From: Saprospiraceae bacterium
GTDB lineage: Bacteria > Bacteroidota > Bacteroidia > Chitinophagales > Saprospiraceae
Reading direction: 5' to 3'
DNA: 34,216 bases
NCBI GenBank assembly: GCA_027008645.1
Contig: JALVEE010000119.1
Span: 1-34,216, forward strand
The notes beneath the pieces are model-generated. The model was not told the origin of the DNA, did not search any database, and saw only the letters and a program-made list of their open reading frames with translations. Position numbers and translations under genes: made by a program. Below, piece after piece: positions 4,671 to 34,216 of this stretch (within the stretch, counting starts at the first letter, position 1; each line of letters opens with the position of its first letter).

Positions 4671-4701
4671 AAGCGTAGTGTGTTTTGTTTTTATTAATGC
4701 A

Positions 4702-4709
4702 CAAAAATA
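4702..4709 (-). promoter_or_regulatory. -7 box for hppA
   Basis: The minus strand reads TATTTTTG, matching TAnnTTTG, about 31 bases before the ATG at 4670. It supports that start over the upstream ATG at 4730. No good -33 TTG is seen. Confidence 0.4.
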
Positions 4710-4872
4710 ACTATTTATCTTTATTTTCATTTAAAATAAAGATAGTTTTTGTACTCAGAGTGAAAAAAAAGTATAATATCTCACTAATTTAGATTGGTTA
4801 TATATATATCCTGTTAACATATGAATTAAATATTTTTTCCGATAATTTGCTGTCATATAAAAGTAATGAATG

Positions 4873-4880
4873 TACATTTG
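4873..4880 (+). promoter_or_regulatory. -7 box for the pta-ackA operon
   Basis: TACATTTG followed by CGCC is a strong match to the Bacteroidota TAnnTTTG promoter element, 29 bases before the pta ATG. A TTTG about 23 bases upstream could serve as the -33 element, with spacing a little longer than usual. Confidence 0.65.
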
Positions 4881-4909
4881 CGCCTTAAAAAAATAAAAAT
4901 TATAATAAA

Positions 4910-7006
4910 ATGAGCAAAGCAGTTTATATAGCAACGATGGAACCGGGAAGCGGTAAGTCAATTGTAACTCTTGGATTGATGAGGATGCTATTGGGAAAAG
5001 TAGCCAAAGTGGGCTATTTTAGACCAATAATAGGAGACTTAGAAAAAGGAGAAGTGGATAATCACATAAATACGGTATTAAAGCATTTTAATTTATCAAT
5101 AAAGTATGAAGATGCGTATGCATTTAGCAAAAGTGAAGTTTTATCCAAAATTCATGATGGAGAACTCGATGAAGTTTTTGATACGATAATCGAAAAGTAC
5201 AAAACTCTTGAGGAAATCTATGATTTTGTGCTTGTGGAGGGAACGGATTTTTCGGGTGAAGGTACTGCAACTGAATTGGAGATTAATACCGATATAGCCA
5301 AGAACCTTGGAATTCCTGCAATAATTGTGGAGGGAGGAAAAGGCAAAACCATGACTGAATTTGTGAATAATCTGCTATCTGCCTATGATTTGTTTGAAAG
5401 TAAAGAAGTCAAAGTGCTTTCCGTAGTCGCAAATATGATTCAGCCTGAGAATTTGGATTGGGTAAAAGAAGAGTTGTGCAAAGAGTTAAAGGGTAAAGTA
5501 TTGGTCAATGTTATTCCTTTGAATGATTTTCTTGGAAATCCGACAGTTAAGGAGGTAGCTCGAAGCTTAAATGCCGAGGTCATTTGTGAGAACCCAAAAA
5601 AACTCAACAAACAGATAGATAATTATGTGATAGGGGCGATGCAGCTTAGAAATTATTTGCCCAGGCTTAAAGATAATTCTTTAATAGTAACTCCCGGAGA
5701 TAGATATGATATTATACTTGGTGCTATTCAAGCGAATATATCTGAAAATTATCCACCTATATCTGGAATAGTGCTTACAGGTGGTTTGAGGCCTGAGGCG
5801 ACAATTCTCGATTTGATTGAAGGAATACCTAATAAATTACCGCTTTTGATTGTAGATAAAAATACTTATGAGATTTCGCAGGCCATTGGTGAAATAAAAC
5901 CTAGAATTTATGCGGCTAATCGCGATAAAATAATGACATCTATTAGAGTATTTGATAATCATGTTGATGGTCAAAGACTTTCTGATGCTTTAATCACATT
6001 TGAGACAAAAGGGATTACTCCAAGGATGTTTCAATACAACTTGCTTAAAAGAGCACAGAAGCACAAAAAACGAATTGTACTTCCGGAGGGGAATGATGAC
6101 AGGGTATTGACGGCAGCTTCACGTCTGATTAATCAAAATGTTGTAGATCTGATTATTCTGGGAAAGGAAGCTGAAATAAGGAAAAGGGTTAGGTTTCTTG
6201 GCTTGAGAATGGATTTTGACAAAGTACGAATCATTGACCCGGTTGAATCCGAATATTTTGATGATTATGCAAAGACGCTTTATGAGTTGAGAAAGCACAA
6301 AAATATGAATTTGGCAATGGCACAAGACAAAATGGAAGATGTTTCTTATTTTGGTACCATGATGGTTTACAAAGGCGATGCAGATGGAATGGTTTCCGGA
6401 GCAGCTCACGCTACTCAACATACGATTCTTCCCGCATTGCAATTTATTAAAACAAAACCCGGAGTCTCCGTAGTATCGTCTATTTTCTTTATGTGTCTCG
6501 AGGACAGAGTATCTGTATTTGGAGATTGTGCTATAAATCCAAATCCTACTGCTGAGCAATTGGCTGAAATAGCAATTTCATCAGCAGATTCTGCAACTGC
6601 GTTTGATATTGAACCTTTGGTCGCCATGCTTTCTTATTCATCTGGAAAGTCAGGGATAGGAGAAGATGTAGATAAAGTAAGAAAAGCGACTGAAATAGTA
6701 AAAGCAAAACGTCCGGATATAAAAATAGAGGGGCCAATCCAGTATGATGCTGCTGTTGACCCGTATATTGCAGGAAATAAGTTGCCTGATTCTGAAGTGG
6801 CCGGGAAAGCTAGTGTCCTTATATTTCCCGATCTTAATACCGGCAATAATACATACAAGGCTGTCCAACGTGAAACCGGAACAATAGCAATTGGCCCAAT
6901 GCTTCAAGGCTTGAACAAGCCGGTCAATGATTTGAGTAGAGGATGTACCATTGACGATATATATAATACAGTTATTATTACGGCAATTCAAGCTCAAGGG
7001 CTCTAA
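4910..7006 (+). CDS. pta: Phosphate acetyltransferase, long (three-domain) form
   Basis: Converts acetyl-CoA and phosphate to acetyl phosphate, the step before acetate kinase. The 698-residue length matches the long form. It has an N-terminal BioD-like P-loop domain (EPGSGKS at 11-17), a middle DRTGG domain (roughly 215-330), and a C-terminal catalytic PTA/PTB domain from about residue 375. The catalytic domain is marked by RIVLPEGNDDRVL, DGMVSGAAHATQHTI and SGKSGIGEDVDKV. Cytosolic. ackA follows in the same direction with 46 bases between the pta stop and the preferred ackA start, so the two almost certainly form an operon. The start is supported by the -7 box at 4873-4880. Confidence 0.97.
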   Translation: MSKAVYIATMEPGSGKSIVTLGLMRMLLGKVAKVGYFRPIIGDLEKGEVDNHINTVLKHFNLSIKYEDAYAFSKSEVLSKIHDGELDEVFDTIIEKYKTLEEIYDFVLVEGTDFSGEGTATELEINTDIAKNLGIPAIIVEGGKGKTMTEFVNNLLSAYDLFESKEVKVLSVVANMIQPENLDWVKEELCKELKGKVLVNVIPLNDFLGNPTVKEVARSLNAEVICENPKKLNKQIDNYVIGAMQLRNYLPRLKDNSLIVTPGDRYDIILGAIQANISENYPPISGIVLTGGLRPEATILDLIEGIPNKLPLLIVDKNTYEISQAIGEIKPRIYAANRDKIMTSIRVFDNHVDGQRLSDALITFETKGITPRMFQYNLLKRAQKHKKRIVLPEGNDDRVLTAASRLINQNVVDLIILGKEAEIRKRVRFLGLRMDFDKVRIIDPVESEYFDDYAKTLYELRKHKNMNLAMAQDKMEDVSYFGTMMVYKGDADGMVSGAAHATQHTILPALQFIKTKPGVSVVSSIFFMCLEDRVSVFGDCAINPNPTAEQLAEIAISSADSATAFDIEPLVAMLSYSSGKSGIGEDVDKVRKATEIVKAKRPDIKIEGPIQYDAAVDPYIAGNKLPDSEVAGKASVLIFPDLNTGNNTYKAVQRETGTIAIGPMLQGLNKPVNDLSRGCTIDDIYNTVIITAIQAQGL

Positions 7007-7052
7007 AAAATAAATACTTGAATCCGGAATGACTAAGGTAAATAATAAACAT

Positions 7053-8237
7053 ATGAAAATATTGGTTGTAAATTCGGGAAGTTCATCTATCAAATATCAA
7101 CTTATAAGTATTCCCGAAAAAGAAGTTATTTGTAAAGGTTTGGTCGAAAGAATCGGATATGACAATGCGGTTATTCATTTTAAATCTGCCAAGTATTCCT
7201 TTGATATGGAATTGCCTATACCTGATCATCAAGCGGGTTTGGAAAAAGTAGCAGGCTTGCTACTCGATTCTAAAAAAGGAGTTATCTCTGATGCAAATGA
7301 GGTATATGCAGTCGGTCATAGGGTAGTGCATGGTGGAAGCACTTTTGTGAAAACTACTGTTATTGACGATAAGGTTAAGCGGGAAATTAAATCGTTGTTT
7401 TCTCTCGCTCCTTTACATAATCCTCCAAATCTGACAGGAATAGAAGTTGCTGAAAAGGTATTCGGAGGAGCAATACAAGTTGCGGTTTTTGACACGGCAT
7501 TTCATCAGACTATTCCTGAAGCAGCTCATAGATATGCCATACCCAATGAGTTTTACGATAAGGAACATATCAGATTATACGGTTTTCACGGTACCAGCCA
7601 TCAATATGTATCAAGAAAAGCCATAGAAGCCTTGAATAAAAAATCTACCAAGATAATCACAATTCATCTTGGAAACGGTTGTAGTATGACAGCTGTAAAA
7701 GATGGTAAAAGTGTCGATCACAGTCTTGGCTTTGGTCCGATGAATGGATTGATTATGGGAACTAGAAGTGGTGATATTGATCAATCTGTGGTGCTTTATC
7801 TCCAGGAAAAATTAGGATATAGTTCTGAAGAAGTCGGTACATTGCTCCAGAAGAAAAGTGGAATGTTGGGATTGACAGGAGTAAGTGACTTGCGTGATAT
7901 AGAATCAGCTGCTGCCCGTGGTGATAAACAGGCTCAATTGGCTCTTGAAATGAATGCATATCGAATCAGGAAATATATCGGTAGTTATGCTGCTGCTATG
8001 AATGGTTTGGATGCTATTGTATTTACAGCGGGAATAGGTGAAAATTCTGAATTGATTAGAGAAATGGTATGCAGAGATATGGATTTTATGGGAATATCAA
8101 TAGATGCTTATAAGAATGCCGGACGAATAACCGAAATGAAATCTATTGAATCCAAAAGCTCTACGGTAAAAATATTTGTAATCCCTACAAACGAAGAATT
8201 GGAGATTGCAATGCAAACTTATTCGTTGTTGAAGTAA
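7053..8237 (+). CDS. ackA: Acetate kinase
   Basis: Makes ATP and acetate from acetyl phosphate, completing the Pta-AckA route of substrate-level phosphorylation. Family motifs run in order: VVNSGSSSIKYQL at the N-terminus, GHRVVHGG, the LAPLHNPPNL loop, FDTAFHQTIPEAA, YGFHGTSHQYVS, the phosphate-binding THLGNGCSMTAVKDGKSVDH, MGTRSGDIDQSV, and FTAGIGENS. The ATG at 7053 gives 394 residues and the canonical MKILVVNSGSS start. An ATG eight codons earlier (7029) is open but would add a non-conserved tail. Second gene of the pta operon, followed by a bidirectional terminator. Confidence 0.97.
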   Translation: MKILVVNSGSSSIKYQLISIPEKEVICKGLVERIGYDNAVIHFKSAKYSFDMELPIPDHQAGLEKVAGLLLDSKKGVISDANEVYAVGHRVVHGGSTFVKTTVIDDKVKREIKSLFSLAPLHNPPNLTGIEVAEKVFGGAIQVAVFDTAFHQTIPEAAHRYAIPNEFYDKEHIRLYGFHGTSHQYVSRKAIEALNKKSTKIITIHLGNGCSMTAVKDGKSVDHSLGFGPMNGLIMGTRSGDIDQSVVLYLQEKLGYSSEEVGTLLQKKSGMLGLTGVSDLRDIESAAARGDKQAQLALEMNAYRIRKYIGSYAAAMNGLDAIVFTAGIGENSELIREMVCRDMDFMGISIDAYKNAGRITEMKSIESKSSTVKIFVIPTNEELEIAMQTYSLLK

Positions 8238-8512: not shown

Positions 8513-10450
8513 TTATTTCGCAACTACAAATTTCTTTGATAATAATTTATCTTTTGTAAATATTGTGAAAATATAAGTTCCGGTAGGAAGATTGTTTGTG
8601 TAGAAATTAAATGTACCTCTATTCAAATCTTTAACAGTTCTCATGTCAATGATTTGACCGTTTATATCATGAATAACCATAGTGGCTTTTTCAATATTTT
8701 TTTGGAAATCAACGTCAACTGTTAGCCTATCTCTTACTGGATTTTCTTTGATAATCACAGTATTTTCAGGCAATAAATCCTCCTCATCAATACTTTCAGG
8801 GAATGGTACAACTAATTTGAGTAATAATCCCATATGCCATCCACCTCCTGTGGATCCGGAAAATCGACTAAACCCACCATCAGAGGTATATAGTAGATAT
8901 TCAAGTTGTCCACTAAAATAATACCTAGGATATACACTATATTTGTTGTCTATTCCTTGATAATAAGTCTGATCTGTTCCCCATCTTGCCGCGATTAAAT
9001 ATTTTGAATTAGGTTCCAAAGCAATATCCTTGTCATCATCTCCATTGTACAGCGGTGTTATAAACTCGCTATACTCAACTACTGTATCAAAATGTTCAGC
9101 AGAATATCCAATACTCTCCATTTGTGGATTTGGTTTATTGTCCACAACTAAGCCCTCTCCACTTAGATTCTGTAAAAGAGGTAAGATTGTATCAGCTAGT
9201 TTTAAAACAGATACATCTGTATCGAATACTAGTGTGTCATCCTGTTCTCCTATTGCTAATGACATTGTTACATCAGTGGCTACAATACTAACATAATCAT
9301 TATCAGCCCAATCACCGGTTCTGTAATGGTTAACATTATACTCTTCTTTTTCTTCACCTATTTTTATATAAGATTCAGTATCATCGTCATTTGTTGTTAA
9401 TGCATTGGTATATAAACGACCATTATCAACTTTTTTCACCAACATGTTACCTGTTACATCGAAGTATTGGATAAAACGTTTCCAAGCATCTGTGGCGGCG
9501 CTATCAACAAAAATATCATAAACTGCTGCGTAATGACCAGTATCCATGTCCGTACTTGGCATAAAAGAACTAAATTCAATTGTATCTGTTTCTCCCGTAG
9601 CGATGTCAAATTTCACACTATCAGTATGGTATGTTGTTGATGTCGATGTATTGACTAAAGTGACTTTTCCTAAGATATCTTTAGACTCTGAACCACCTTT
9701 GTTTTGAACCTCCATAATAAAATAGAAAGAATCTGCTGCTATGAAAGCTTGGGGCGTATTAAAGAATTGTGGAGGAAACCAAGTTCCTGTTATCTGAGGA
9801 TCGGCTTTAGGACTATCAATAACATAAACATCATCAATTACCCAAAAATAAAAACACCTGTTGTCTTGTGGATTAGGAGCAAAAACAAATCTAAATCTAA
9901 CATCCGGTTGATTCTTTGCAAAATTGGTAATATCAATTAATTTTACATCATCATCACTTGTTTCATCGTTATAGGAATAATCCGGATTTACATTTCCAAC
10001 TGATTCCCAATTTTCACCACCATCTACCGAAACTTCTAAAGAAGTAATTGATGCAAAATTTCTAAAATACTGATTGAACTGTACCCAAACAGATTCGTGA
10101 CCTACACATGAAAATGCTGGTGATTCTAAATATCCTGTATGAGGTGTTGGAGCGATTTTATTGTAACCGTAATAATCGGAGTCAAATGTTGCTGCTCCAT
10201 TTGCAACGGATGGAGATTGGATTGGGCCTCTGTTTCCAAAATAATTTCCCTTGTCTGCTGCTCCATTTTCTTTCCATTCCCAAAGAGCATTTTCAGGCTC
10301 ACCATATGTAGTCCAATCATTTAAACCACCGTCAAATTCACTGTTTTTATCTCCGGGGCCTCCCCAAATATAGGTTTGAGATACTCCTATTTGTCCAAGT
10401 AGAACCATAGTTAGAAAGGTAAATACGAATTTTGTAAAATGTTTTTTCAT
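8513..10450 (-). CDS. Secreted T9SS cargo protein with jelly-roll-like N-terminal domain
   Basis: 645-residue secreted protein of unknown function. A signal peptide (1 to about 24, ending VGVSQ-like at GQIGVSQ) is followed by a beta-rich region (about 25-215). The motifs LESPAFSCVG, LEVSVDGGENWESVG and WVIDDVYV there are typical of MAM or concanavalin-like folds in Bacteroidota surface proteins. A CARDB/Ig-like segment with alternating TDSVKF and GETDTIEF strands follows (about 215-330). The last 80 residues (ENPVRDRLTVDV, IHDINGQII, LPTGTYIFTIFTKDKLLSKK) are a type A T9SS C-terminal sorting domain, so the mature protein should cross the outer membrane and be attached or released. No catalytic motif was recognised; adhesion or substrate binding is a guess. 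It has its own promoter and terminator. Confidence 0.88.
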   Translation of the reverse strand: MKKHFTKFVFTFLTMVLLGQIGVSQTYIWGGPGDKNSEFDGGLNDWTTYGEPENALWEWKENGAADKGNYFGNRGPIQSPSVANGAATFDSDYYGYNKIAPTPHTGYLESPAFSCVGHESVWVQFNQYFRNFASITSLEVSVDGGENWESVGNVNPDYSYNDETSDDDVKLIDITNFAKNQPDVRFRFVFAPNPQDNRCFYFWVIDDVYVIDSPKADPQITGTWFPPQFFNTPQAFIAADSFYFIMEVQNKGGSESKDILGKVTLVNTSTSTTYHTDSVKFDIATGETDTIEFSSFMPSTDMDTGHYAAVYDIFVDSAATDAWKRFIQYFDVTGNMLVKKVDNGRLYTNALTTNDDDTESYIKIGEEKEEYNVNHYRTGDWADNDYVSIVATDVTMSLAIGEQDDTLVFDTDVSVLKLADTILPLLQNLSGEGLVVDNKPNPQMESIGYSAEHFDTVVEYSEFITPLYNGDDDKDIALEPNSKYLIAARWGTDQTYYQGIDNKYSVYPRYYFSGQLEYLLYTSDGGFSRFSGSTGGGWHMGLLLKLVVPFPESIDEEDLLPENTVIIKENPVRDRLTVDVDFQKNIEKATMVIHDINGQIIDMRTVKDLNRGTFNFYTNNLPTGTYIFTIFTKDKLLSKKFVVAK

Positions 10451-10519
10451 AAGTTTGACTTTTTTAATTTAAAAATATATTTCGTGAATGTAAATAACCA
10501 ATTTCACATTAATTATTGA

Positions 10520-10550
10520 CAAAGATATAGCAATCCTTACTACTTTCCAA
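10520..10550 (-). promoter_or_regulatory. Promoter of the T9SS cargo gene
   Basis: On the minus strand, TTG (10550-10548), a 20-base spacer and TATCTTTG (10527-10520) match the Bacteroidota -33/-7 architecture. The untranslated leader would be about 60 bases. The rest of the divergent gap 10451-10767 is AT-rich; nothing else is supported there except a weak TATCTTG-like box upstream of the plus-strand gene. Confidence 0.65.
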
Positions 10551-10767
10551 GATTTAAATGAAATTTATTTGTTAAAACTACTATCCCTTCTGTGTTAATT
10601 GGTGTTATATTTGATTTTCGTCCCAATGTTTATTGTTTTTTTTGATAGTAACTACTCAGGTAGAATCATTTTGATTGATATTGGTTGAAGAAAACACCAT
10701 TTATTTATATTTAGTATAAATAATTTCATATCTTGCGTTTTTTTAGTATAATATAAAACAGATAAAA

Positions 10768-23567: not shown

Positions 23568-24968
23568 ATGATAGAATTTATATTGAATGATAGGATTGTC
23601 AAGACGGAGGCAAAATCCGGTATGACATTGTTGCAATTCATCAGGGAAATCGAGGGGCTGAAAGGGACGAAATCAGGGTGTAAAGAGGGAGATTGTGGAG
23701 CTTGTACAGTATTGAGCGGAATACTGCAATATGATGATACAGTAAAATACTCTTCTATCACTTCATGTCTTACTCCCCTGGCAAATGTAGATAAAAGACA
23801 TATTGTTACAGTTGAAGGATTGAATCTTACGGATGAATTGAATGTCTCACAATATGCGATAAAAGAGCATTACGGAACCCAATGTGGCTTTTGTACACCC
23901 GGATTTGTGGTTTCACTGACCGGTTATTCATTGGATACAAAGGTAGATGCTAAAGCAATTAATCATTTAAGCGGCAATATCTGTAGATGTACAGGATACA
24001 AGTCAATAGAAAAAGCCGCAAATACTGTAGAAGAATTAGTAAAAGATAAAAGTATTCAAGGGGATATAAACAAATTGATTGAGCAAAGATTTATCCCTGA
24101 GTATTTTAAAGGCATACCGGAAAAGCTTAAGTCATTAAAATCCAATTGGTCTGAAAAGGGGGATCAATTGGTCGCGGGAGGAACAGATTTATATGTTAGA
24201 TTTGCAAATGAATTAGCAGAAGTAAACATAAAAAGACATATCGATTCGGTAAATACCAAAATCAATCTTGAAAATGATATACTTACTATTGGTGCAGCGG
24301 CAACTGGCACAGATATAATGGAAAATAATCAATTTAATAAACATTTTCCCTATTTGCAGGATCACCTAAAACTTATATCTTCAAGGCAGATTAGAAATAT
24401 GGGAACGATTGCCGGTAATTTTGTCAACGCTTCACCCATTGGAGATATGTCTATATTCTTTTTGGCTTTGGGTAGTAAACTAACTATAATTGACGAAAGA
24501 AATAATGAACGGGAAATTTGGCTTAAAGATTTTTTCAAAGATTATAAGTCATTTGACTTGAAAAAGGGAGAGATTATTAAAAACATATCTTTCCGATTAC
24601 CTAATGCCCAATCAAAATTCAATTTTGAAAAAGTAAGCAAAAGAACTCATTTGGATATTGCTAGTGTCAATAGTGCTATGTTGATTGATGTGGAAAAAGA
24701 TGAAATTAAAAATATAAATATATCCATTGGTGGGGTCGCAGCAATTCCTAAATACCTATTTAACACAAAAAAGTATTTGCTGAATAAAAAAATATCTAAG
24801 GAAAATATAATAAATGCACAAGATATAATGCAATCAGAGATTTCCCCGATAAGTGATATTAGAGGAACTGAAAAGTACAAAAGACTTTTGGCGAGACAAT
24901 TGTTTTATGCCCATTTTATTAAGATATTTCCTGATAGATTTAGTCTAAAGGATTTAATTGAGAATTAG
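23568..24968 (+). CDS. xdhA: Xanthine dehydrogenase small subunit (2x[2Fe-2S] and FAD)
   Basis: 466-residue electron-transfer subunit of xanthine dehydrogenase. The N-terminal plant-type ferredoxin has Cys38, 43, 46 and 67. The second [2Fe-2S] domain has Cys106, 109, 139 and 141 (QCGFC, CRC). The CO-dehydrogenase-type FAD domain follows (about 160-460), with VAGGTDLYVRF and RNMGTIAGNFVNASPIGD as flavin-binding loops. Electrons should pass from the molybdenum centre of the partner subunit through the clusters to FAD and then to NAD+. First gene of a three-gene operon; the next start is three bases after its stop. Cytosolic, no signal peptide. Confidence 0.95.
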   Translation: MIEFILNDRIVKTEAKSGMTLLQFIREIEGLKGTKSGCKEGDCGACTVLSGILQYDDTVKYSSITSCLTPLANVDKRHIVTVEGLNLTDELNVSQYAIKEHYGTQCGFCTPGFVVSLTGYSLDTKVDAKAINHLSGNICRCTGYKSIEKAANTVEELVKDKSIQGDINKLIEQRFIPEYFKGIPEKLKSLKSNWSEKGDQLVAGGTDLYVRFANELAEVNIKRHIDSVNTKINLENDILTIGAAATGTDIMENNQFNKHFPYLQDHLKLISSRQIRNMGTIAGNFVNASPIGDMSIFFLALGSKLTIIDERNNEREIWLKDFFKDYKSFDLKKGEIIKNISFRLPNAQSKFNFEKVSKRTHLDIASVNSAMLIDVEKDEIKNINISIGGVAAIPKYLFNTKKYLLNKKISKENIINAQDIMQSEISPISDIRGTEKYKRLLARQLFYAHFIKIFPDRFSLKDLIEN

Positions 24969-24971
24969 AAA

Positions 24972-27221
24972 ATGAAAAATAAAGATTCATATACACATGT
25001 AAGAGGCGAATCATTATTTGTCGATGATATCAATGTAAGAGAAGGCACTTTGCACGCGGTAGTCTTTGATTCATCTGTCGCTCATGCAAAAATAGTAAAT
25101 ACGGACTATTCGGCAGCGGAAGCACTTCCCGGAGTGGTAAAAATATTGACTTATCAAGATATTCCAGGTCAGAATCAAATCGGAGCTATAATCCAAGATG
25201 AACCCTTATTTGCAGAGGATGAAGTTCATTTTCAAGGTCAGCCTATTGCATTGATAATAGCGGAGACACTGGCGATTGCAAAAAAAGCCGTTAAATTGAT
25301 AAAAATTACTTTTGATGAACTTCCCGTTGTTACAACAGCAAAAGAGGCTTTTGACAAAGCTTTGTTTATTAATCCTGCAAGAACATTTAAAATAGGCAAT
25401 AATGAAGATGCTTTTGACAATTGTAAATATGTTTTTGAGGGAGAAACTTATACAAACGGTCAGGAACATTTGTATCTTGAGACTCAAGGTGCATATGCAT
25501 ATCCATTGGAAAATGGAAATATCAAATTATTATCTTCTACTCAAGGACCTACTTCTGTACAAAAAATAGCAGCAAGGGTTTTGGGTCTTGCAATGCATAA
25601 AATAGAAGTGGAAGTAATAAGATTAGGAGGTGGATTTGGTGGAAAAGAGGATCAAGCAACTGCTTGGGCAACAATGGCAGCTCTTGGAGTTGCAGTATTG
25701 GATAAACCCGTGAAATTGATATTGGAACGCCATGATGACATGCGTATGACCGGTAAAAGACATCCGTATGAATCATTTTTCAAAATTGGATTGAATGAAG
25801 ATTTGAAGATAATGGCATTTGAAGTTGACTATCTGCAAAATAGCGGTGCTGCGGCAGATTTGTCTCCTGCAATAGCAGAAAGAACACTTTTTCACGGTAC
25901 AAACAGCTATTTTGTACCAAATGCTAAACTAACAGTTCATAGTTGTAAGACAAATCTACCGCCCAATACTGCTTTCAGAGGATTTGGAGGTCCTCAAGGA
26001 ATGTTTGTAATTGAAGCTGCAATAGAAATGGCAGCAGAGAAATTAAATATTCCTGCTTACAAAATACAAGAAGCTAATTTGCTGCAAGATTATGATGAAT
26101 TTCCTTATGGTCAAATCGCGAAAAATGTTGAGATAAAAAACAGTTGGAATCAATTAAAAAAAGAGATTGATTTTGAGAATAAGTTAAAGGAAATCGAAGA
26201 TTATAACAATCAAAATGATTCTACAAAATTGGGCTATTCATTTATGCCTGTTACATTCGGTATATCTTTCACAAATACAATGATGAACCACGCGAGGGCT
26301 TTGGTGCATGTTTATCATGATGGGAGTGTGGGCGTAAGTACAGGAGCTGTTGAAATGGGACAATCGGTCAATACTAAACTGCTACAGATAGCAGCGATGA
26401 AATTTGGAATAAGTTCTTCAAAAGTCAAAATAGAAACGACTAATACTACCAGAGTTGCCAATACTTCTCCAACAGCTGCAAGTGCCACAACAGACCTCAA
26501 TGGTAAGGCTTTGATGATGGCTTGTGATGCTATTCAAGATAGGCTTGAAGTGGTTGCTTCCCGTATCTTAAAAGTAGATAAGGAAAGTATATTTTTCAAG
26601 GATAATTTCGTTTATATCAAAGACAAAAAATCCTCTTTGAGTTGGGATAAGCTGATACTGGAAGCTTTTGTAAGAAGGGTTAGCTTGTCGGAAACAGCCC
26701 ATTATAGTACACCAAAAATACATTTTGACAAAACAAAAGAAAAAGGACATCCGTTTGCTTACCACGTTTATGGCACAGCATTTACAGTAGTAAAATTGGA
26801 TTGTCTAAGGGGAATATACGATGTAGAGTCGGTAGATATCGTTCATGATTTCGGTAAATCTATGAATATTGGTATAGATATTGGTCAAGTTGAAGGAGCA
26901 TTGGTGCAAGGAATCGGATGGATGACAATGGAGGAGATCGCATATGATAATAAAGGTAGATTATTGTCCAATTCATTATCGACATATAAAGTGCCGGACA
27001 TTTTTTCAGCGCCCAAAAATATCAATGTGAAGGCGATGGAAACCAATGGGCACTATATGGCAATATTGAAGTCCAAGGCAGTTGGCGAACCTCCGTTAAT
27101 GTATGGTATCGGGACGTATTTCGCCCTACAGAATGCAATAAAAGCATTCAATCCTCAATCCAAATTAAAATTTAATGCTCCGATGACACCGGAAAAAGTA
27201 TTGTTGAGTTTATATGAATAG
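24972..27221 (+). CDS. xdhB: Xanthine dehydrogenase molybdenum-binding large subunit
   Basis: 749-residue catalytic subunit that hydroxylates hypoxanthine and xanthine to urate. The pocket residues known from bovine and Rhodobacter enzymes appear at matching spacing. Glu226 in GGGFGGKE (bovine Glu802) and Arg304 in AIAERTLFH (bovine Arg880) are 78 apart, as in the model. Phe338 in FRGFGGPQ (bovine Phe914) stacks on substrate. Glu706 in VGEPPL (bovine Glu1261) is the catalytic base. Aldehyde oxidases lose the first two, so a true purine hydroxylase is favoured. The residue matching was done by eye from remembered models. The gene sits tightly between xdhA and xdhC. Confidence 0.95.
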   Translation: MKNKDSYTHVRGESLFVDDINVREGTLHAVVFDSSVAHAKIVNTDYSAAEALPGVVKILTYQDIPGQNQIGAIIQDEPLFAEDEVHFQGQPIALIIAETLAIAKKAVKLIKITFDELPVVTTAKEAFDKALFINPARTFKIGNNEDAFDNCKYVFEGETYTNGQEHLYLETQGAYAYPLENGNIKLLSSTQGPTSVQKIAARVLGLAMHKIEVEVIRLGGGFGGKEDQATAWATMAALGVAVLDKPVKLILERHDDMRMTGKRHPYESFFKIGLNEDLKIMAFEVDYLQNSGAAADLSPAIAERTLFHGTNSYFVPNAKLTVHSCKTNLPPNTAFRGFGGPQGMFVIEAAIEMAAEKLNIPAYKIQEANLLQDYDEFPYGQIAKNVEIKNSWNQLKKEIDFENKLKEIEDYNNQNDSTKLGYSFMPVTFGISFTNTMMNHARALVHVYHDGSVGVSTGAVEMGQSVNTKLLQIAAMKFGISSSKVKIETTNTTRVANTSPTAASATTDLNGKALMMACDAIQDRLEVVASRILKVDKESIFFKDNFVYIKDKKSSLSWDKLILEAFVRRVSLSETAHYSTPKIHFDKTKEKGHPFAYHVYGTAFTVVKLDCLRGIYDVESVDIVHDFGKSMNIGIDIGQVEGALVQGIGWMTMEEIAYDNKGRLLSNSLSTYKVPDIFSAPKNINVKAMETNGHYMAILKSKAVGEPPLMYGIGTYFALQNAIKAFNPQSKLKFNAPMTPEKVLLSLYE

Positions 27222-27255
27222 CTGTATCTTACTGCTGTTTGATAAAAAATAATCT

Positions 27256-28218
27256 ATGGAAATTTGGAGTAAGATTGTAGAAAAACTGAGGAATCACAAG
27301 AGGATAATTCTACTTTTGGTATGTTCTCATAAAGGAAGTTCACCCGGTAAGCAGGGATTCAAAATGATGGTATGTGAGGATGGGACTTTATACGGATCGA
27401 TTGGTGGAGGCAGAACTGAGTTCCAAATGGTCGAAAAAGCAAAGGTCTTATTGCAAAAAGACGATTTCAAACCTTTTTTGATCAATCAAGTACACAGGGA
27501 AGATGCAGAAGACAGTTCGGGAATGGTATGTGCCGGAGAGCAATTAGTGCTTTTTTATCCAATAGATAGCGAAAACTTGAGCACGATTAAGGATATTGTT
27601 TTGCAAAAAAAGGGTGTGTTGAAAATCACAAAAGACGAGTTTGTTTTTGATGAAAAAGCGATATTGAAAGACGATTTTATATTTGAAAAATATGAAGAGT
27701 GGAACTATGCCGAAAATGTAAACAGGAAATCAAAAATATTTCTCATCGGGGGAGGGCATGTAGGACTTGCCACATCTCAACTTTTCTCTTTGCTGGATTT
27801 TGAAATAACTGTTTTTGAAAACAGGGAAAATATAAATACATTTGAAAATAATTCTTTTGCAGACAATAAACTTTTAGTTGATTATAATAATATTGTTGAT
27901 TATATACCGGAAGGAAACAATACGTACATTGTGATTTTGACACATGGGCATCAAGTAGATAAATTGGTCTTGTCCAAATTATTTAAAAAAGACTATAAAT
28001 ACATCGGTTTATTAGGAAGCAAATCCAAAGTAAGGAAAATGTTCAATGCATTTGCAAAAGAAGGAATCGACAAAGAAGAATTAGCAAAAGTGGATGCTCC
28101 CGTTGGTTTGGATATCGGAAGCAAGACCCCAGCTGAAATAGCGGTTAGCATTGCCGCAAAAATCATTGCAATGCGGAATAAGGGTAATTTAATTTCTTTA
28201 ACTAATTTAATTCGCTAA
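27256..28218 (+). CDS. xdhC: XdhC-type molybdenum cofactor chaperone
   Basis: 320-residue XdhC/CoxI family protein that binds Moco, helps its sulfuration and inserts it into the XdhB subunit. The N-terminal domain carries CSHKGSSPGKQGFKMMV and GSIGGGRTE. The C-terminal Rossmann-like domain begins at IFLIGGGHVGLATSQL (about 162-177) and contains ILTHGHQVD, YIGLLGSKSK and GLDIGSKTPAEIAVSIAA. The start is 34 bases after the xdhB stop, so it is the third gene of the operon. No purine transporter or urate-degrading gene is adjacent. Confidence 0.93.
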   Translation: MEIWSKIVEKLRNHKRIILLLVCSHKGSSPGKQGFKMMVCEDGTLYGSIGGGRTEFQMVEKAKVLLQKDDFKPFLINQVHREDAEDSSGMVCAGEQLVLFYPIDSENLSTIKDIVLQKKGVLKITKDEFVFDEKAILKDDFIFEKYEEWNYAENVNRKSKIFLIGGGHVGLATSQLFSLLDFEITVFENRENINTFENNSFADNKLLVDYNNIVDYIPEGNNTYIVILTHGHQVDKLVLSKLFKKDYKYIGLLGSKSKVRKMFNAFAKEGIDKEELAKVDAPVGLDIGSKTPAEIAVSIAAKIIAMRNKGNLISLTNLIR

Positions 28219-28696: not shown

Positions 28697-29875
28697 TCAA
28701 TAACTATATCTCAATCTTAAGTATAGAGCATTTTGGATATTGGAAAATTTGTCGTTTTGTTTACCAAAGAATAATTGTCCGTTGAAGTCTATATCCCAAT
28801 TTTCTTTGATTGAGTACGAATAATTTGGTAATAGGGCTACAGCTTTGAAATCGTACATGTACATAATTCCGATAGCGGCAGAAGATGCCGGATTTATTTG
28901 CAGATTGTTTTGAAGGATAAAGGACAATTTATTTGGCATTAGATTTCTTGCGCTCAATGATTCTCCCAAAAAGTATTGGATATTGAACGATTTGGAATCT
29001 GTAATACCATCTGAATTGTACAATACGGAACCCAGTATCATTAGCCCGTTTTTGAAAAAATAATCCATAGATAGTGATGTTAAAACTACTGTTTTAGCCA
29101 TTGAATTATTGTCTTTTGGTATAAATAATGTGCTTTCTCCTTTGAATCCTGCACTTTTGATATAACCTTCCCAACCAAGCCCCAAAGCTATATCTGTTTT
29201 GTAATTGGCTTCGATTAATTGGATGTCATATGACTTAATACTGAATTGTTGTCTTAATGCTATGATGGAGTGATCTATATCTTTACCGTATGAATATGCT
29301 GCTTGAACCAGAGAGGATTCCCCATAATTGTACAAAATACTAATGGCATCACTACCTGGTCTTTCTTCATAATCAAAGTCCAAAAGATTGTATGTGTTGA
29401 ATAGGTCATTGGCATTCCAAGCCCAAGTTTTCCCCCAGTTAATCCTTTGGCGACCGATTTTGAATTCCCAGTTTCCGGTGTTATAAGTAAGGGAAAGTCT
29501 ATCTATTTTAGAATGAAACAAAAGAGCTTTCTCGTCGATTAGGAAAGCAGATAAGTCAATATCATTTTGCACATCTATATAGTCCTTGAAATATGGATTT
29601 TTTAGTGATTCTCCCCACAAAATCCTGTTTCTGATTTGCATGTCAAAGGTAAAATTATCATTGATATACATCTTGAAATTAATGCGGTTGTGAATCATAT
29701 TATCGGAATAGATATTGTCGAAGTCTCTAAAAGAGGCAGTATTTAGATATTTCACATATCCGGAAATTGACGTATTTTCTTTCCACCAACTTTTCTTTTT
29801 TTCTTGAGAAAGTAGGGTAGTGGTTTGTACTATAAGAAAGATGATAAATAAAAGAATGTTTTTTTTCATAATCAT
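28697..29875 (-). CDS. Outer-membrane beta-barrel protein linked to a Lol-like ABC cassette
   Basis: About 392 residues from the ATG at 29875 (MIMKKN). The ATG at 29869 is equally good, and a GTG at 29908 overlapping the upstream stop codon is less likely. A signal peptide (IIFLIVQTTTLLSQ) precedes about 16 amphipathic strands ending in the aromatic LRLRYSY, typical of barrels inserted by Bam. The conserved segment IGRQRINWGKTWAWNANDLF and the EERPG motif resemble porin-like proteins of the DUF1302 type, but the family is not certain. It is the last gene of the cassette, 29 bases after the ATPase stop. This context suggests it is the outer-membrane endpoint of the export route. Function unproven. 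Confidence 0.78.
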   Translation of the reverse strand: MIMKKNILLFIIFLIVQTTTLLSQEKKKSWWKENTSISGYVKYLNTASFRDFDNIYSDNMIHNRINFKMYINDNFTFDMQIRNRILWGESLKNPYFKDYIDVQNDIDLSAFLIDEKALLFHSKIDRLSLTYNTGNWEFKIGRQRINWGKTWAWNANDLFNTYNLLDFDYEERPGSDAISILYNYGESSLVQAAYSYGKDIDHSIIALRQQFSIKSYDIQLIEANYKTDIALGLGWEGYIKSAGFKGESTLFIPKDNNSMAKTVVLTSLSMDYFFKNGLMILGSVLYNSDGITDSKSFNIQYFLGESLSARNLMPNKLSFILQNNLQINPASSAAIGIMYMYDFKAVALLPNYSYSIKENWDIDFNGQLFFGKQNDKFSNIQNALYLRLRYSY

Positions 29876-29904
29876 TGTTTTACCAGTCAAATCAAATACT
29901 AAAA

Positions 29905-30591
29905 TCACATTTTTTTGTCCTCGACTATTTTCCCATCCTCCAACACGAGAATTCTCTTTGCTCTGTCAATTACTCTTTGGTCGTGAGTAGAAAATATAAA
30001 TGTTATTCCTTCCTCTTCATTCAATTTTGCCATTATATCCAATAATTGTGCGGTAGATTTGGAATCCAAATTGGCTGTGGGTTCATCAGCGAGTATAAAT
30101 CTTGGTTTTGATGCTAGGGCTCTGGCAACAGCCACTCTCTGCTGTTGTCCACCTGAAAGTTGTGTCGGTCTTCGATCCATCATTTTTCCTAATCCCACTT
30201 CTTTCAGCAATTCCTTTGTTCTTTTTTCTCTGTATTCCTTGTCAATGCCCTGCAACAACATAATGAATTCCACATTTTCTTTTGCGGTAAGTACAGGAAT
30301 CAAGTTATAAGCTTGAAAGATGAAACCTATATTGTGCAATCTGAAGTCGATTAATTCTCCACTTTTTAATTTGGTTATATCAGTATTGTCAATAACGACT
30401 TTTCCTGTATTGGGTGAGTCCAATCCACCAATTATATTGAGGAAAGTTGTTTTTCCTGAACCTGATGGGCCAACAATAGCGGTAAATTCCCCTTTGTGAA
30501 ATTCGCAAGATACATCATTTAAGGCTTTGACTTCAATTTCTCCTTGATTGTATATTTTGGATAAGTGTTCTGTTTTAATTACGGTATTCAT
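29905..30591 (-). CDS. LolD/MacB-type ABC transporter ATPase
   Basis: 228 residues, single nucleotide-binding domain: Walker A GPSGSGKT (41-48), Q-loop Gln93, signature LSGGQQQR (145-152), Walker B FILADEP with catalytic Glu170, and His203. It groups by motif with the LolD/MacB/FtsE type VII family that powers extraction of substrates from the outer leaflet of the inner membrane. It starts ten bases after the upstream permease stop and pairs with the two FtsX-like permeases. No periplasmic MacA-like adaptor is encoded, so the set is closer to Lol than to MacAB. Confidence 0.94.
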   Translation of the reverse strand: MNTVIKTEHLSKIYNQGEIEVKALNDVSCEFHKGEFTAIVGPSGSGKTTFLNIIGGLDSPNTGKVVIDNTDITKLKSGELIDFRLHNIGFIFQAYNLIPVLTAKENVEFIMLLQGIDKEYREKRTKELLKEVGLGKMMDRRPTQLSGGQQQRVAVARALASKPRFILADEPTANLDSKSTAQLLDIMAKLNEEEGITFIFSTHDQRVIDRAKRILVLEDGKIVEDKKM

Positions 30592-30601
30592 ATTATTGGT
30601 T

Positions 30602-31825
30602 TTAAAGTGATTTTATAGCTTCTGCCGGATTGAGTTTCAATGCACGTCTGGCAGGGAATAATGAGGAAATAAATGCTACAAGCAAAGTAAGTAGAGTTAC
30701 ATTTACGTACATTTCCCGTGGTAAATAGGTGTACATGATAGCAGCTATACCCAGACTTTCGAGACCTGAAGAAAACATACTCAAATCAATGCCATGAGTT
30801 GAATAGTATTCGATGCTAAGATAAGACAAAAGAAGTCCGAGTGGTGCTGCAAGCATTGTTAAAAACACTGTTTCGAAAGTGATCATCGCAAATACTTTTT
30901 GTTTCTTCATTCCTACTGCCATTAGCATCCCAAGTTCTTTTTTTCTTTCCAAAACAGCCATTAGCATTGAATTGATAATGCCAAATGATAGTGCAGCTAA
31001 AACAATTAGCATAAAAATTATTAAAAATGTTGACATCATTTCTTGTGCATAGCCCAATTCGGGGGATATTTCATCCCATGTTTCGGTTTTATTGTTTTTA
31101 TCCTTTAGTTTTAATTTTTCTGCAATAATTGATGCTTGCTCAAGCGAATTTCCTACATAAGCAATCTCATTTATTTCTCCATTTTTGAAATCAACGATTT
31201 TAGCTAAATCATCTTTCCTTACAAAGATTGTAGAACCGTCAAAAGTTGTATTTTGAGTCTTAAATATTCCTTCTACTCTAAAGGCAGCATTGACCAAATC
31301 CCCCACAGAATTTTGTAAAGTAACAATAATTTTAGAATTGATTTTAATCTTCATTTTGTCAGCAAGTTTCTTGCCAATTACTGCCGGATTCCTTTTGATT
31401 TTTGTAAAATATGTGCCTTCAATAAGATGATTGTAAATTTCCGTCACTTTTATTTCATTTTGCGGGTCGATTCCTGTTAGTTGTGTTCCAAATGTCCCTT
31501 TTGCATTTGCCACCATGCCAGGTGAAATTATTCTTTCAGAATACGCTTTAACCTGTGGGATAGTATTAATACTTGTGATAACAGCTAACCTGTATAAGAT
31601 TGTGTCGTTTATCGTTTGGTCACTGAGGAATTTCGGATTGTGTATTTGACCATGAGAAAGTGTAGTTGTTATAGCTCCGTTAATTCTCTGTTCGTTCAAG
31701 CCATAAGTCATAGCCATTATGAACAATCCCGACCAAATACCAAGAACAATAGATATTATAACCACACTGCTGCGTAGCTTGTTCCTCCAAATATTTCGCC
31801 ATGCTATTTTTATTATTTCCTTCAT
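30602..31825 (-). CDS. FtsX/LolCE-like ABC permease (second)
   Basis: 407-residue inner-membrane protein with the type VII layout. One N-terminal helix after AWRNIWRNKLRSS (about 19-42) is followed by a large periplasmic MacB-PCD-like domain (about 45-265), then three C-terminal helices (about 270-300, 315-345, 370-395). The ELGMLMAVGMKKQKVF coupling helix lies between helices 2 and 3. The C-terminal PARRALKLNPAEAIKSL is a family hallmark. It forms a heteromeric pair with the preceding permease, from which it is separated by 25 bases. Confidence 0.9.
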   Translation of the reverse strand: MKEIIKIAWRNIWRNKLRSSVVIISIVLGIWSGLFIMAMTYGLNEQRINGAITTTLSHGQIHNPKFLSDQTINDTILYRLAVITSINTIPQVKAYSERIISPGMVANAKGTFGTQLTGIDPQNEIKVTEIYNHLIEGTYFTKIKRNPAVIGKKLADKMKIKINSKIIVTLQNSVGDLVNAAFRVEGIFKTQNTTFDGSTIFVRKDDLAKIVDFKNGEINEIAYVGNSLEQASIIAEKLKLKDKNNKTETWDEISPELGYAQEMMSTFLIIFMLIVLAALSFGIINSMLMAVLERKKELGMLMAVGMKKQKVFAMITFETVFLTMLAAPLGLLLSYLSIEYYSTHGIDLSMFSSGLESLGIAAIMYTYLPREMYVNVTLLTLLVAFISSLFPARRALKLNPAEAIKSL

Positions 31826-31850
31826 TTGATTGTTTTTATTGTATTAAAAT

Positions 31851-33077
31851 CTATAATGATCTCATCGCTTTTATTGGTTTCATAAATTTTACTTTCATTA
31901 TAGGATATAGCGAGGCGATTAAAGCTATTGCGAATATTATCATTGCATGAGTAAAGAATATATTTATATCAGTTGACATTGGAATTACCGGCTCAAAACC
32001 AAAATCTTTTAAGGCTTCACCTTTTGGACCGGGTATTACAAAGGGATTGTAGTGGTAATATAAAACGAGTGGTGAAACCAAAAGCATTCCCGCTATGACA
32101 CCAATAAGTGAAAGTATAATAGATTCTATAACAAGCATTAATGTTAATTTGATTTTTTTTGTTCCGATAGCTAGCATAACACCAAGTTCATAAATTCTTT
32201 CTTCGGTCATCATCAGAACAGTCCCCAATATTCCAAAAGATATGATCATATATAGAATGGCGATCATCAAAATGCCGCCAATATTATCTACGGCAATAGT
32301 TTCTTTTAGTTCGGGAATCATTTTTTCCCAAGTCATAATTTCATATTTATTAAGATCGATCTTGTTTGATAATGAATTGTATATGTCGTTCATTTCGGCT
32401 TTGTCTTCTTTGGCAATTATTAAGTTTGTCACTAAGCCGTTTGCCGAACTGAATTCTTGCGCCAATTTTAATGGGAAAAATACAAGCAGTCTATTCAATT
32501 TTGGGTTTGACATATTTATAATTCCTGAGATTGGATATTTTCCGGCAGCACTGACTCCATGATAACCTTGACCTATAAAAACCACGGTATCCCCAACCGT
32601 TTTGTTAAAGAATTTTGCCAATCCTTTTGTTATCATAACGGATCTGTCATTTGACTTAAATAGCTGTCCTGCTACCAGTCTTTTACTCCAGTCAGTTAGT
32701 TTGACTTCTTTTTCCAAATTGATGCCTTGCAACATTACGCCTTTTGTGGTTTTTCCTGCTGACATCAATGAGAAAGTTTGTATTCTGGGTATCAGCTCTA
32801 TTACTCCATCGGTATTGATTAAAGATTTATAAAGTTTATCATCAAAAATCATTGAATTATCAAGGGTTTGCTCATCCCAAAATCCTTTCTTGTGGATTTG
32901 AATATATCCCGAATAAGTATTGACAACATTTTTTATCATATTGCTGTACATCCCCAATTGCATCGACCTCATAAATACAGCGAGAAATACCGCGATTAAT
33001 ACAGAGGCAATCGTTATTAGACTCCGCTTTTTGTTCCGCCAAATATTTCTCCAAGCTAATTTTAATATTAAATTCAT
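31851..33077 (-). CDS. FtsX/LolCE-like ABC permease (first)
   Basis: 408 residues, same architecture as its downstream neighbour: N-terminal AWRNIWRNKKRSLITIASVL helix, periplasmic domain (about 45-260), then three helices. The coupling motif is ELGVMLAIGTKKIKL, and the C-terminus KFMKPIKAMRSL matches the MacB/LolC tail. The two permeases are clearly different in sequence, like LolC and LolE, implying a heterodimer. It follows the LolA-like gene by 65 bases. Substrate unknown; a lipid or lipid-anchored protein fits the architecture. Confidence 0.9.
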   Translation of the reverse strand: MNLILKLAWRNIWRNKKRSLITIASVLIAVFLAVFMRSMQLGMYSNMIKNVVNTYSGYIQIHKKGFWDEQTLDNSMIFDDKLYKSLINTDGVIELIPRIQTFSLMSAGKTTKGVMLQGINLEKEVKLTDWSKRLVAGQLFKSNDRSVMITKGLAKFFNKTVGDTVVFIGQGYHGVSAAGKYPISGIINMSNPKLNRLLVFFPLKLAQEFSSANGLVTNLIIAKEDKAEMNDIYNSLSNKIDLNKYEIMTWEKMIPELKETIAVDNIGGILMIAILYMIISFGILGTVLMMTEERIYELGVMLAIGTKKIKLTLMLVIESIILSLIGVIAGMLLVSPLVLYYHYNPFVIPGPKGEALKDFGFEPVIPMSTDINIFFTHAMIIFAIALIASLYPIMKVKFMKPIKAMRSL

Positions 33078-33142
33078 TTTGTATATTTAAATAGTTGTAT
33101 GAGCGTATCAAATACATTATTATAATCTATTATTTATTTTTT

Positions 33143-33886
33143 TTATCTCAGTCTTTTCATATATGAAGTCGTGAAATACTTTTCAGGTATTTTTGTATTG
33201 AAATTTAATTCAAGATAATCTATTAGAGTCTTGTTGCCGGGATTATCTTCCGGTATAAATTCCATATGAGAGGGGATTTTTCTACCGTCGAATTCTTTGA
33301 TATTTGAACCGATTAGTTTATTTATCAAGAAATTGTCTTCATCGTAATACTCACCTCTCAATTGATTGTACTCCTCTTTATCTATCCACATGATTATTTT
33401 TCCCCAAATGACAGCTGCGTTTTCTTTTGGAGTTAATACTATTTTCCATGTATTATATCCGTCAATTAGTTCTTCTCCTGCTATTTTGTGATTGTAATCT
33501 ACCAATATTGAAGACTGCTTTATCATATCGTCATTTGTCAGATCCGTACCCATCCATCCTTGTGTCATCATTGATGGAGGTAGCTTTATCGTCCTTGAGA
33601 TTGACGGGACATAATTCCAAACCTCTTTGTCACGTCTAAGAAAGACAATTCCTTTTTCTTTTGCCGGGGATGTGACCAAAGCAACAGAATAATTTGAGTT
33701 TTTTGTCCAAGTTTTTATTATCATTTCTTTCGACCAAGATGGTCTTACAGCAGTGATTTTTATTTTGGCAAATGATGTCGCACTTCTCAATTTATCATCT
33801 GATTTTTTGACTATGTCATATGCGTTTTGTGCAGATATGCCTGAGCTTAAAAGCAATACAGGTAGAATTATTTTTATTAATTTCAT
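33143..33886 (-). CDS. LolA-like outer membrane lipoprotein-sorting protein
   Basis: 247-residue exported protein with a signal peptide (about 1-19, VLLLSSGISAQ). The beta-rich body is of the LolA_like (PF17131) type: WNYVPSISRTIKLPPSMMTQ, GWMGTDLTNDDM and HKIAGEELIDGYNTWKIVLTP are family signatures. Relatives have an incomplete barrel with a hydrophobic pocket and carry acyl chains across the periplasm; no cysteine lipobox is seen, so it is probably soluble. Its ATG overlaps the TetR stop by one base (TAATG), giving translational coupling. It is probably the shuttle between the ABC pump and the barrel. Confidence 0.92.
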   Translation of the reverse strand: MKLIKIILPVLLLSSGISAQNAYDIVKKSDDKLRSATSFAKIKITAVRPSWSKEMIIKTWTKNSNYSVALVTSPAKEKGIVFLRRDKEVWNYVPSISRTIKLPPSMMTQGWMGTDLTNDDMIKQSSILVDYNHKIAGEELIDGYNTWKIVLTPKENAAVIWGKIIMWIDKEEYNQLRGEYYDEDNFLINKLIGSNIKEFDGRKIPSHMEFIPEDNPGNKTLIDYLELNFNTKIPEKYFTTSYMKRLR

Positions 33887-34216
33887 TATTTTTGATTTTT
33901 ATACTTTTTTATTATACTTTCTTTTATTTTTTTGTAAGGTAAATTGTCTCCTATTACCAAGTATTGGTACATCACTCCATCTAAAGTTGCCAATAACAAT
34001 CTGGCTTCTTCTTCGGGGTTTTGATAATCCAATTTCTTCAATAGAATTTCTATTTTTTTTACATATTCATCATATTTTTTATAGATCATATCGTTGATGA
34101 AATCAAATTCCTTTATTTGCATTGACAGGGGTATTAGCATCCTTAAAAAGCCTGTGTGGTTTTCGATAATACCAAACATTTTTTCGATAACAATAATCAG
34201 TTCTTCATTTGCAGTC
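33886..34216 (-). CDS. TetR-family regulator, C-terminal part (cut by the window edge)
   Basis: The frame stays open to the end of the window; the DNA-binding N-terminus lies outside. The visible 110 residues are helical (EKMFGIIENHTGFLRMLIPL, DDMIY-like NDMIYKKYDEYVKKIEILL, EEARLLLATLDGVMYQYLVIG) and resemble the ligand-binding domain of TetR regulators that respond to acyl or hydrophobic ligands. Its TAA overlaps the ATG of the LolA-like gene, so it heads the cassette and probably controls it. Assignment rests on fold-like features only. Confidence 0.7.
   Translation of the reverse strand, partial: TANEELIIVIEKMFGIIENHTGFLRMLIPLSMQIKEFDFINDMIYKKYDEYVKKIEILLKKLDYQNPEEEARLLLATLDGVMYQYLVIGDNLPYKKIKESIIKKYKNQK

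Follow-up and report, generated by a model that had tools for sequence, protein, structure and literature searches.

The window analysed here is the entire contig C119 (JALVEE010000119.1; 34,216 nucleotides) of a Saprospiraceae draft genome (GCA_027008645.1; 366 contigs, 96.2% complete). At one end it carries a cassette encoding a TetR-family regulator, a LolA-like carrier, two FtsX-type permeases (FtsX1 and FtsX2), a LolD-type ATPase and an outer-membrane beta-barrel. We find that the order of the last five genes is conserved among relatives, that carrier and barrel are found together across the phylum, and that the cassette stands beside a separate, housekeeping-type LolCE permease. We consider it probable, at roughly 0.58, that the cassette is dedicated to the ATP-driven export of a lipid or small hydrophobic molecule from the inner to the outer membrane, and is not a general lipoprotein sorter. 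A preliminary description made from the DNA alone had proposed six co-directional genes with an overlap between the first two; all six were confirmed on the minus strand where it had placed them, and base 33886 belongs both to the TAA stop of TetR and to the ATG start of the LolA-like gene.

Relatives were collected by a scan of 84,980 species genomes, in which at least 516 were confirmed and the best 80 retained. Gene order was counted in the 56 of these 80 loci with at least 4.6 kb of downstream sequence, the remaining 24 being too short. The order LolA-FtsX1-FtsX2-LolD-barrel is kept on one strand in 51 of the 56, so the expected conservation is borne out, and all five genes are still visible in 4 of the 24 short loci. 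Loci with the complete order include those of Flavobacterium luteum (L054), Salegentibacter flavus (L076) and Echinicola shivajiensis (L083). Among the five exceptions the barrel is located ahead of TetR in two (L049, L088), no barrel lies within the sequence covered in L064, and L035 and L045 hold LolA and FtsX1 only. At L062 and L087 a putative KilA-N domain gene, not FtsX2, comes after the LolA-like gene and FtsX1. The closest relatives by the LolA-like gene, among the matches listed, are Saprospiraceae metagenome-assembled genomes (93% and 72% identical). Loci labelled Chlorobiota, Rhodothermota and Balneolota, which are separate phyla at NCBI, are also among the relatives. A Persicobacter record has all six genes, and the one five-gene set from outside the sampled GTDB phylum, in Vibrio campbellii, lacks TetR and was met in the plasmid collection only.

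A profile built for TetR was applied to the 78 loci whose upstream sequence exceeds 700 bases (76 of the best 80 relatives plus the Persicobacter and Vibrio loci). TetR is directly upstream of the cassette in 43, of which 42 are on the same strand, and no TetR is found immediately upstream in the other 35; it is on the opposite strand in L063 and L152. The earlier suggestion of a TetR-led, inducible pathway is not fully borne out: TetR is common but not a fixed member, and inducibility is what we infer from TetR alone.

The linkage of carrier and barrel was surveyed in 395 genomes sampled evenly from the source phylum, scoring the best four or six candidates per genome. At E 1e-8 the barrel profile matches 91 genomes and the LolA profile 115. 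The cut for a cassette-type LolA, 230 bits, was set after seeing a gap between 234 and 157 bits; 88 genomes hold such a carrier and, among the candidates scored, 307 show none. The barrel is present in 87 of the 88. In the one genome without it (G300) the LolA-like gene is frameshifted, FtsX1 is truncated and frameshifted, and the remaining cassette parts were not found in the following 5 kb; this locus is a decayed remnant. As to position, 78 of the 91 barrels follow the LolA-like gene on the same strand at a distance of 2.5-7 kb, two are at 1.2 and 8.5 kb from it, seven are on a different contig and four lie within 0.8 kb of weaker LolA-like matches; the barrel is thus not found mainly in other contexts. 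Together with the 51 of 56 loci above, this linkage rules out chance gene order.

Intervening genes were read in some survey loci only (L146-L148, L151-L153). The full order is present in G112, G030 and G353, the last with two additional genes, while no separate ATPase was called between carrier and barrel in G003, and G223 and G215 have broken or partial gene sets. In L152 two genes (9436-10681), coding for an NmrA-like NAD(P)-binding protein and a DUF6713 protein, separate ATPase and barrel, and TetR is divergent. In G389, an assembly of six contigs, the barrel is separate from LolA-FtsX1-FtsX2-LolD (L143/L144, contigs C2 and C4), hence carrier and barrel co-occur there without neighbourhood; this barrel gene comes after a large outer-membrane barrel gene. 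The two genes are also on different contigs in G196 (L145, C20). Pairwise distances of the LolA-like proteins and the barrels correlate with r 0.80 over 56 sequences (55 loci and the window), and none of 999 permutations was as high; such a correlation is expected from common descent and is no proof of contact.

Housekeeping Lol components were searched in 20 cassette genomes, hand-picked for few contigs or closeness. All 20 carry a separate LolCE permease whose score (best 171-299 bits) exceeds that of the cassette permeases, which reach 168 bits at most; on the permease side, this answers the question of a separate LolCDE raised at the outset. In the source genome this is a permease on contig C121 that scores 197 bits, compared with 115 and 75 for the two cassette permeases, and a LolA1-type carrier is present at C340 (NF053572, 123.7 bits, cut-off 100). 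Sixteen of the 20 genomes yielded a PF03548 LolA, which passed the cut-off in 15; G162, G352, G112 and G389 yielded none. None of the LolCE permeases in the 20 genomes attains 362 bits, the NCBI cut-off, which therefore does not discriminate here. In a midpoint-rooted permease tree of 54 rows, FtsX1 (15 rows, support 100/99) and FtsX2 (15 rows, 99/96) form two groups, as the description of two different permeases implied, and these join one another (95/88). The housekeeping LolCE permeases and E. coli LolC and LolE form a separate group (14 rows, 100/100); two housekeeping rows, G391b (372 residues) and G059b (356), seem N-terminally short from the choice of the longest open reading frame (ORF). 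Our reading is that FtsX1 and FtsX2 may represent an old heterodimer in its own right.

The carrier belongs with the DUF1329/LolA3 proteins. Its structural model (predicted local distance difference test, pLDDT, 87.7) matches NE2245 (3buu), a DUF1329 protein (4z48), LolA3 of Porphyromonas gingivalis (9tp6) and a Vibrio protein (3bk5) with template modelling (TM) scores of about 0.77-0.84, as against 0.42-0.53 for E. coli LolA (7z6w). For 4z48 the scores are 0.81/0.83 with a sequence-profile E of 9e-26, and the profile recovers all four proteins at E 1.5e-20 or better. The Pfam scan gave DUF1329 at E 0.004 only, below the cut-off, and no match to PF03548 at E up to 1. According to a passage of PMC13103446, P. 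gingivalis LolA3 binds LolB only weakly, whereas LolA binds with a Kd of 6-10 uM; because of this weak binding, a carrier of the LolA3 kind may do without LolB. In a tree of 27 carriers and the LolA1 of the source genome, groups are formed by the cassette carriers (14 rows, 96/95), those of biosynthetic clusters (3 rows, 100/100), other ABC variants (4 rows, 94/98) and MMPL-linked carriers (6 rows, 80/81). As carriers group by engine and setting, engine and carrier have mostly stayed together. PF17131 itself matches 6 of 14 control genomes, 4 of them over the cut-off, and three of the six are archaea without an outer membrane; the family is therefore broader than outer-membrane sorting. The cassette, for its part, suggests that the common annotation of PF17131 as 'outer membrane lipoprotein-sorting protein' may mislead.

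The barrel model (pLDDT 91.9) has 18 long strands counted by eye, two short elements excluded. Among the matches listed, the solved structures nearest to it are porins of the OprD/Occ type, which align over about 300 of the 390 residues (Z 23-24), with MOMP (Z 23.5), AlgE (22.8) and Wzi (20.6) also present. Sequence identities are 7-14% to OprD/Occ, MOMP and AlgE and 8% to Wzi, and Foldseek TM-scores are 0.4-0.6. No Omp85 fold was among the matches listed, where the porin-type rows are OprD/Occ, MOMP, AlgE and others. Since the nearest solved folds are porin-like and tied, the fold names no function. The barrel profile has no match among solved-structure sequences at E 1 or below. DUF1302 is matched at E 0.01 or below by 15 of 55 barrels (best 9.5e-7; the window barrel 0.009, below the cut-off), and a Prevotella barrel above the DUF1302 cut-off resembles the cassette barrel along most of its length (96%, 4.4e-9). 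Conservation peaks in interstrand residues 139-175 (consensus GRQRINWG...NDIFN...FDYEERPGSDA) and in charged or polar residues. Of the 19 invariant residues 13 are charged or polar: R62, R80, R124, Q141, R142, N144, D155, N158, D166, E169, D215, E245 and Q365.

Relatives of carrier and barrel are also found with other engines. The Prevotella nigrescens locus reads TetR-ABC-ABC-MMPL-PF17131-DUF1302; it shares TetR, a PF17131 carrier and a homologous barrel with the cassette and differs by its MMPL engine and two fused-type ABC genes. The part of PMC10434189 that concerns such operons describes similar TetR/ABC/MMPL sets in Prevotella intermedia and P. gingivalis, with a 'hypothetical protein' at the barrel position and a 13- to 223-fold increase under low iron. 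Survey genomes G005 and G087 have the order TetR-LolA-barrel-MMPL. In Haliovirga, a gene for a ketoacyl synthase III is located close to an MMPL version. Distant ABC plus PF17131 versions sit amid acyl/polyketide-type synthesis genes on an Enterobacter bugandensis plasmid and in Aliiroseovarius according to record annotation, and in an unannotated E. coli record (L161) according to our ORF reading. In L161 and the E. bugandensis plasmid locus (L159), fatty-acid/polyketide-type genes surround an ABC ATPase, an FtsX permease and a PF17131 carrier, with a 462-residue hypothetical protein as candidate outer-membrane part; these loci have the appearance of an enterobacterial lipid or polyketide exporter, and the L159 cluster is near haemagglutinin-type secretion genes. 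The ABC variants of G158 and G034 have outer-membrane-like proteins (370 and 377 residues) without a Pfam match at E 0.01, and that of G034, the one compared, has no clear similarity to the cassette barrel.

Compared with LolCDE-LolA, the cassette has the same two FtsX/MacB_PCD permeases with four segments, a separate LolD-type ATPase and a carrier of the LolA superfamily, but its permeases (30 rows) fall outside the LolCE group, its carrier is PF17131 and not PF03548, and it adds its own barrel, a frequent TetR and coexistence with another LolCE permease. MacB is a permease fused to an ATPase, with the MacA adaptor and TolC as partners. The ABC permease domain of MacAB-TolC is of the same type as in the cassette, whose ATPase gene is separate and among whose six genes, to which this search was confined, there is no membrane fusion protein and no TolC. 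In Castellaniella defragrans, an extract of PMC6394551 describes AmeABCD as an HAE3 RND pump with a DUF1329 carrier and a DUF1302 protein, deletion of which reduced monoterpene tolerance. Both systems place a LolA-superfamily (DUF1329-like) carrier and a barrel, in the cassette one with distant similarity to DUF1302, by an inner-membrane engine, but the engine of the cassette is ABC (FtsX/MacB_PCD, no MMPL match) and not RND, no AmeC-like protein is present, and the cassette carriers group apart from MMPL-linked carriers (in a tree without AmeB). A LolCDE-like ABC transporter, a LolA-like carrier and a barrel are likewise clustered in Borrelia BBJ23-29, as far as an excerpt of PMC13078400 describes it; that set differs in having one permease, an Omp85-type barrel and TPR proteins and in its location on spirochaete linear plasmids.

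LolCDE/MacB-type ABC proteins operate on the periplasmic side, which suggests that cargo would be extracted from the outer leaflet of the inner membrane. The best reading of these comparisons is that the cassette would be the ABC counterpart of the RND-LolA-DUF1302 systems. Its ABC part would extract the cargo from this leaflet and pass it to the LolA-like carrier, which would hand it to the barrel as its presumed partner; export is the assumed direction, and the TetR upstream in just over half of the relatives suggests ligand-induced expression. Two points favour a lipid or small hydrophobic molecule as cargo: the carrier belongs with the DUF1329/LolA3 proteins, and its relatives occur with RND/MMPL pumps or acyl/polyketide genes. 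Several observations weigh against this. The top NCBIfam match of both permeases is LolCE, below the cut-off, which leaves a lipoprotein as a less likely candidate cargo. The invariant polar residues of the barrel, if they face the lumen as we assume, fit a polar lumen more readily than a bare-hydrocarbon cargo, and would suggest an amphiphile with a polar head as cargo. We clustered non-cassette ORFs of at least 80 residues lying between 4 kb upstream and 10 kb downstream of where the LolA-like gene starts, and found no recurrent cargo or biosynthetic neighbour in 82 loci; the widest cluster, sigma-factor-like by eye, covers five. The cargo reading is therefore taken from distant relatives, whose carriers fall in other tree groups than those of the cassette and whose outer-membrane-like proteins have no detected similarity to the cassette barrel in weak tests of single sequences. 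Of what was first proposed, a conserved extra Lol-like path with a dedicated barrel beside the housekeeping LolCE is supported; the surface lipoprotein among its proposed cargoes is less favoured than a lipid or small hydrophobe.

An ordinary housekeeping LolCDE-LolA mistaken for something special has next to no chance of being the explanation. The C121 permease is the single other clear LolCE permease in the source draft genome, which would speak for it, yet that permease outscores the cassette pair, a LolA1-type carrier is present at C340 and 307 of the 395 phylum genomes show no cassette-type LolA; C121 and C340, if functional, and the LolCE result in all 20 genomes rule this explanation out. 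It is improbable, if less so, that the cassette serves a single lipoprotein, or a few, as an additional Lol pathway whose barrel flips its cargo onto the cell surface. LolCE and LolD are the top NCBIfam matches of the permeases and the ATPase, and several LolA/LolB sets may be carried by Bacteroidota in the account given by a section of PMC11885536. Yet the permeases lie outside the LolCE group, the carrier matches PF17131 and not PF03548, the P. gingivalis LolA3 of the same fold binds LolB weakly in the passage cited above (PMC13103446), and no neighbour gene recurs in the 82 loci, which were compared by sequence and not searched for lipoboxes.

Inducible efflux of toxic foreign hydrophobic compounds, with TetR as sensor, is a special case of the dedicated exporter, so that the odds of the two overlap; we consider it unlikely, though clearly less so than the lipoprotein pathway. 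The directly upstream TetR (43 of 78 loci, in 42 of them on the cassette strand), the protection against monoterpenes by the RND-engined cousin AmeABCD (PMC6394551, in the extract cited), the patchy distribution (88 of 395 genomes) and the lack of recurring biosynthetic neighbours agree with it, but TetR is not immediately upstream in 35 of the 78 loci, and the distant ABC versions sit with biosynthesis genes, suggesting a self-made cargo there. Returning to the dedicated exporter, we tentatively extend it, at somewhat less than even odds, to a further general route in Bacteroidota, in which a Lol-like heterodimeric extractor with its own carrier, and a barrel replacing LolB as receptor, would serve a lipid or amphiphile cargo, often cargo-switched via TetR, in the 88 of 395 genomes that have the cassette-type carrier.

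To our knowledge, little is understood about the transport of lipids other than lipopolysaccharide, and of further greasy molecules, to the outer membrane or into the medium, especially in Bacteroidota. We found no description of an ABC plus PF17131 plus barrel operon from this phylum in the literature, mostly openly licensed papers, in agreement with the initial view of well-known families in an unsettled combination. The parts are known families and folds, and the RND-engined carrier-barrel exporter is already described; new here is a set that runs on an ABC engine, brings its own pair of permeases and occurs in about one fifth of the sampled genomes. This suggests that carrier-plus-barrel exporters can have either an RND or an ABC engine. 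Given its patchy distribution the cassette is probably dispensable, and as a compact, co-retained five-gene set, often with a likely sensor, it makes cargo and route amenable to testing.

Table 1. Genes of the cassette in the window
Feature	Position	Strand	Basis or remark
TetR-family regulator, C-terminal 109 residues	33886..34215	-	Open 5' end; TetR_C_31 E 0.00065, below Pfam cut-off
LolA-like periplasmic carrier (PF17131), 247 residues, N-terminal hydrophobic signal, without lipobox	33143..33886	-	LolA_like PF17131 E 8.2e-53
FtsX1, FtsX/MacB_PCD permease, 408 residues, 4 hydrophobic segments	31851..33077	-	Pfam FtsX and MacB_PCD; tree
FtsX2, distinct second FtsX/MacB_PCD permease, 407 residues, 4 hydrophobic segments	30602..31825	-	Pfam FtsX and MacB_PCD; tree
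LolD/MacB-type ATPase, 228 residues	29905..30591	-	ABC_tran E 9.5e-37; motifs
Outer-membrane beta-barrel, 390 residues, N-terminal hydrophobic signal, without lipobox	28697..29869	-	Weak DUF1302 match; model

Hydrophobic segments, signals, the lipobox and the ATPase motifs were assessed by a simple hydropathy and motif scan. The N-terminal DNA-binding part of TetR is lost because the contig ends there; the fragment is identified by its weak Pfam match together with the complete 192-residue TetR (TetR_N E 2.4e-16) in the same place in L015, a relative whose LolA-like protein is 93% identical. The ATPase has Walker A GPSGSGKT from residue 41, LSGGQ from 145 and the H-loop histidine 203, and its top NCBIfam match, LolD, scores 231 bits against a cut-off of 307.75. 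Spacing between the genes ranges from the one-base overlap of TetR and the LolA-like gene up to a gap of 65 bases, and an alternative GTG start of the barrel at 29908 would overlap the ATPase stop.

Elsewhere in the window, a putative molybdenum hydroxylase cluster (23568-28218) lies on the opposite strand and heads toward the cassette; it includes an aldehyde/xanthine dehydrogenase-type subunit (24972-27221), the roles of its neighbours being assigned by eye. A membrane H+-pyrophosphatase adjoins a phosphate acetyltransferase and acetate kinase pair (2520-8237). A protein of 645 residues that carries a type IX secretion tail (8513-10450), encoded 18 kb from the cassette, is 42% identical to the product of an ORF in L016 (10513-12468) that is located between ATPase and barrel there.

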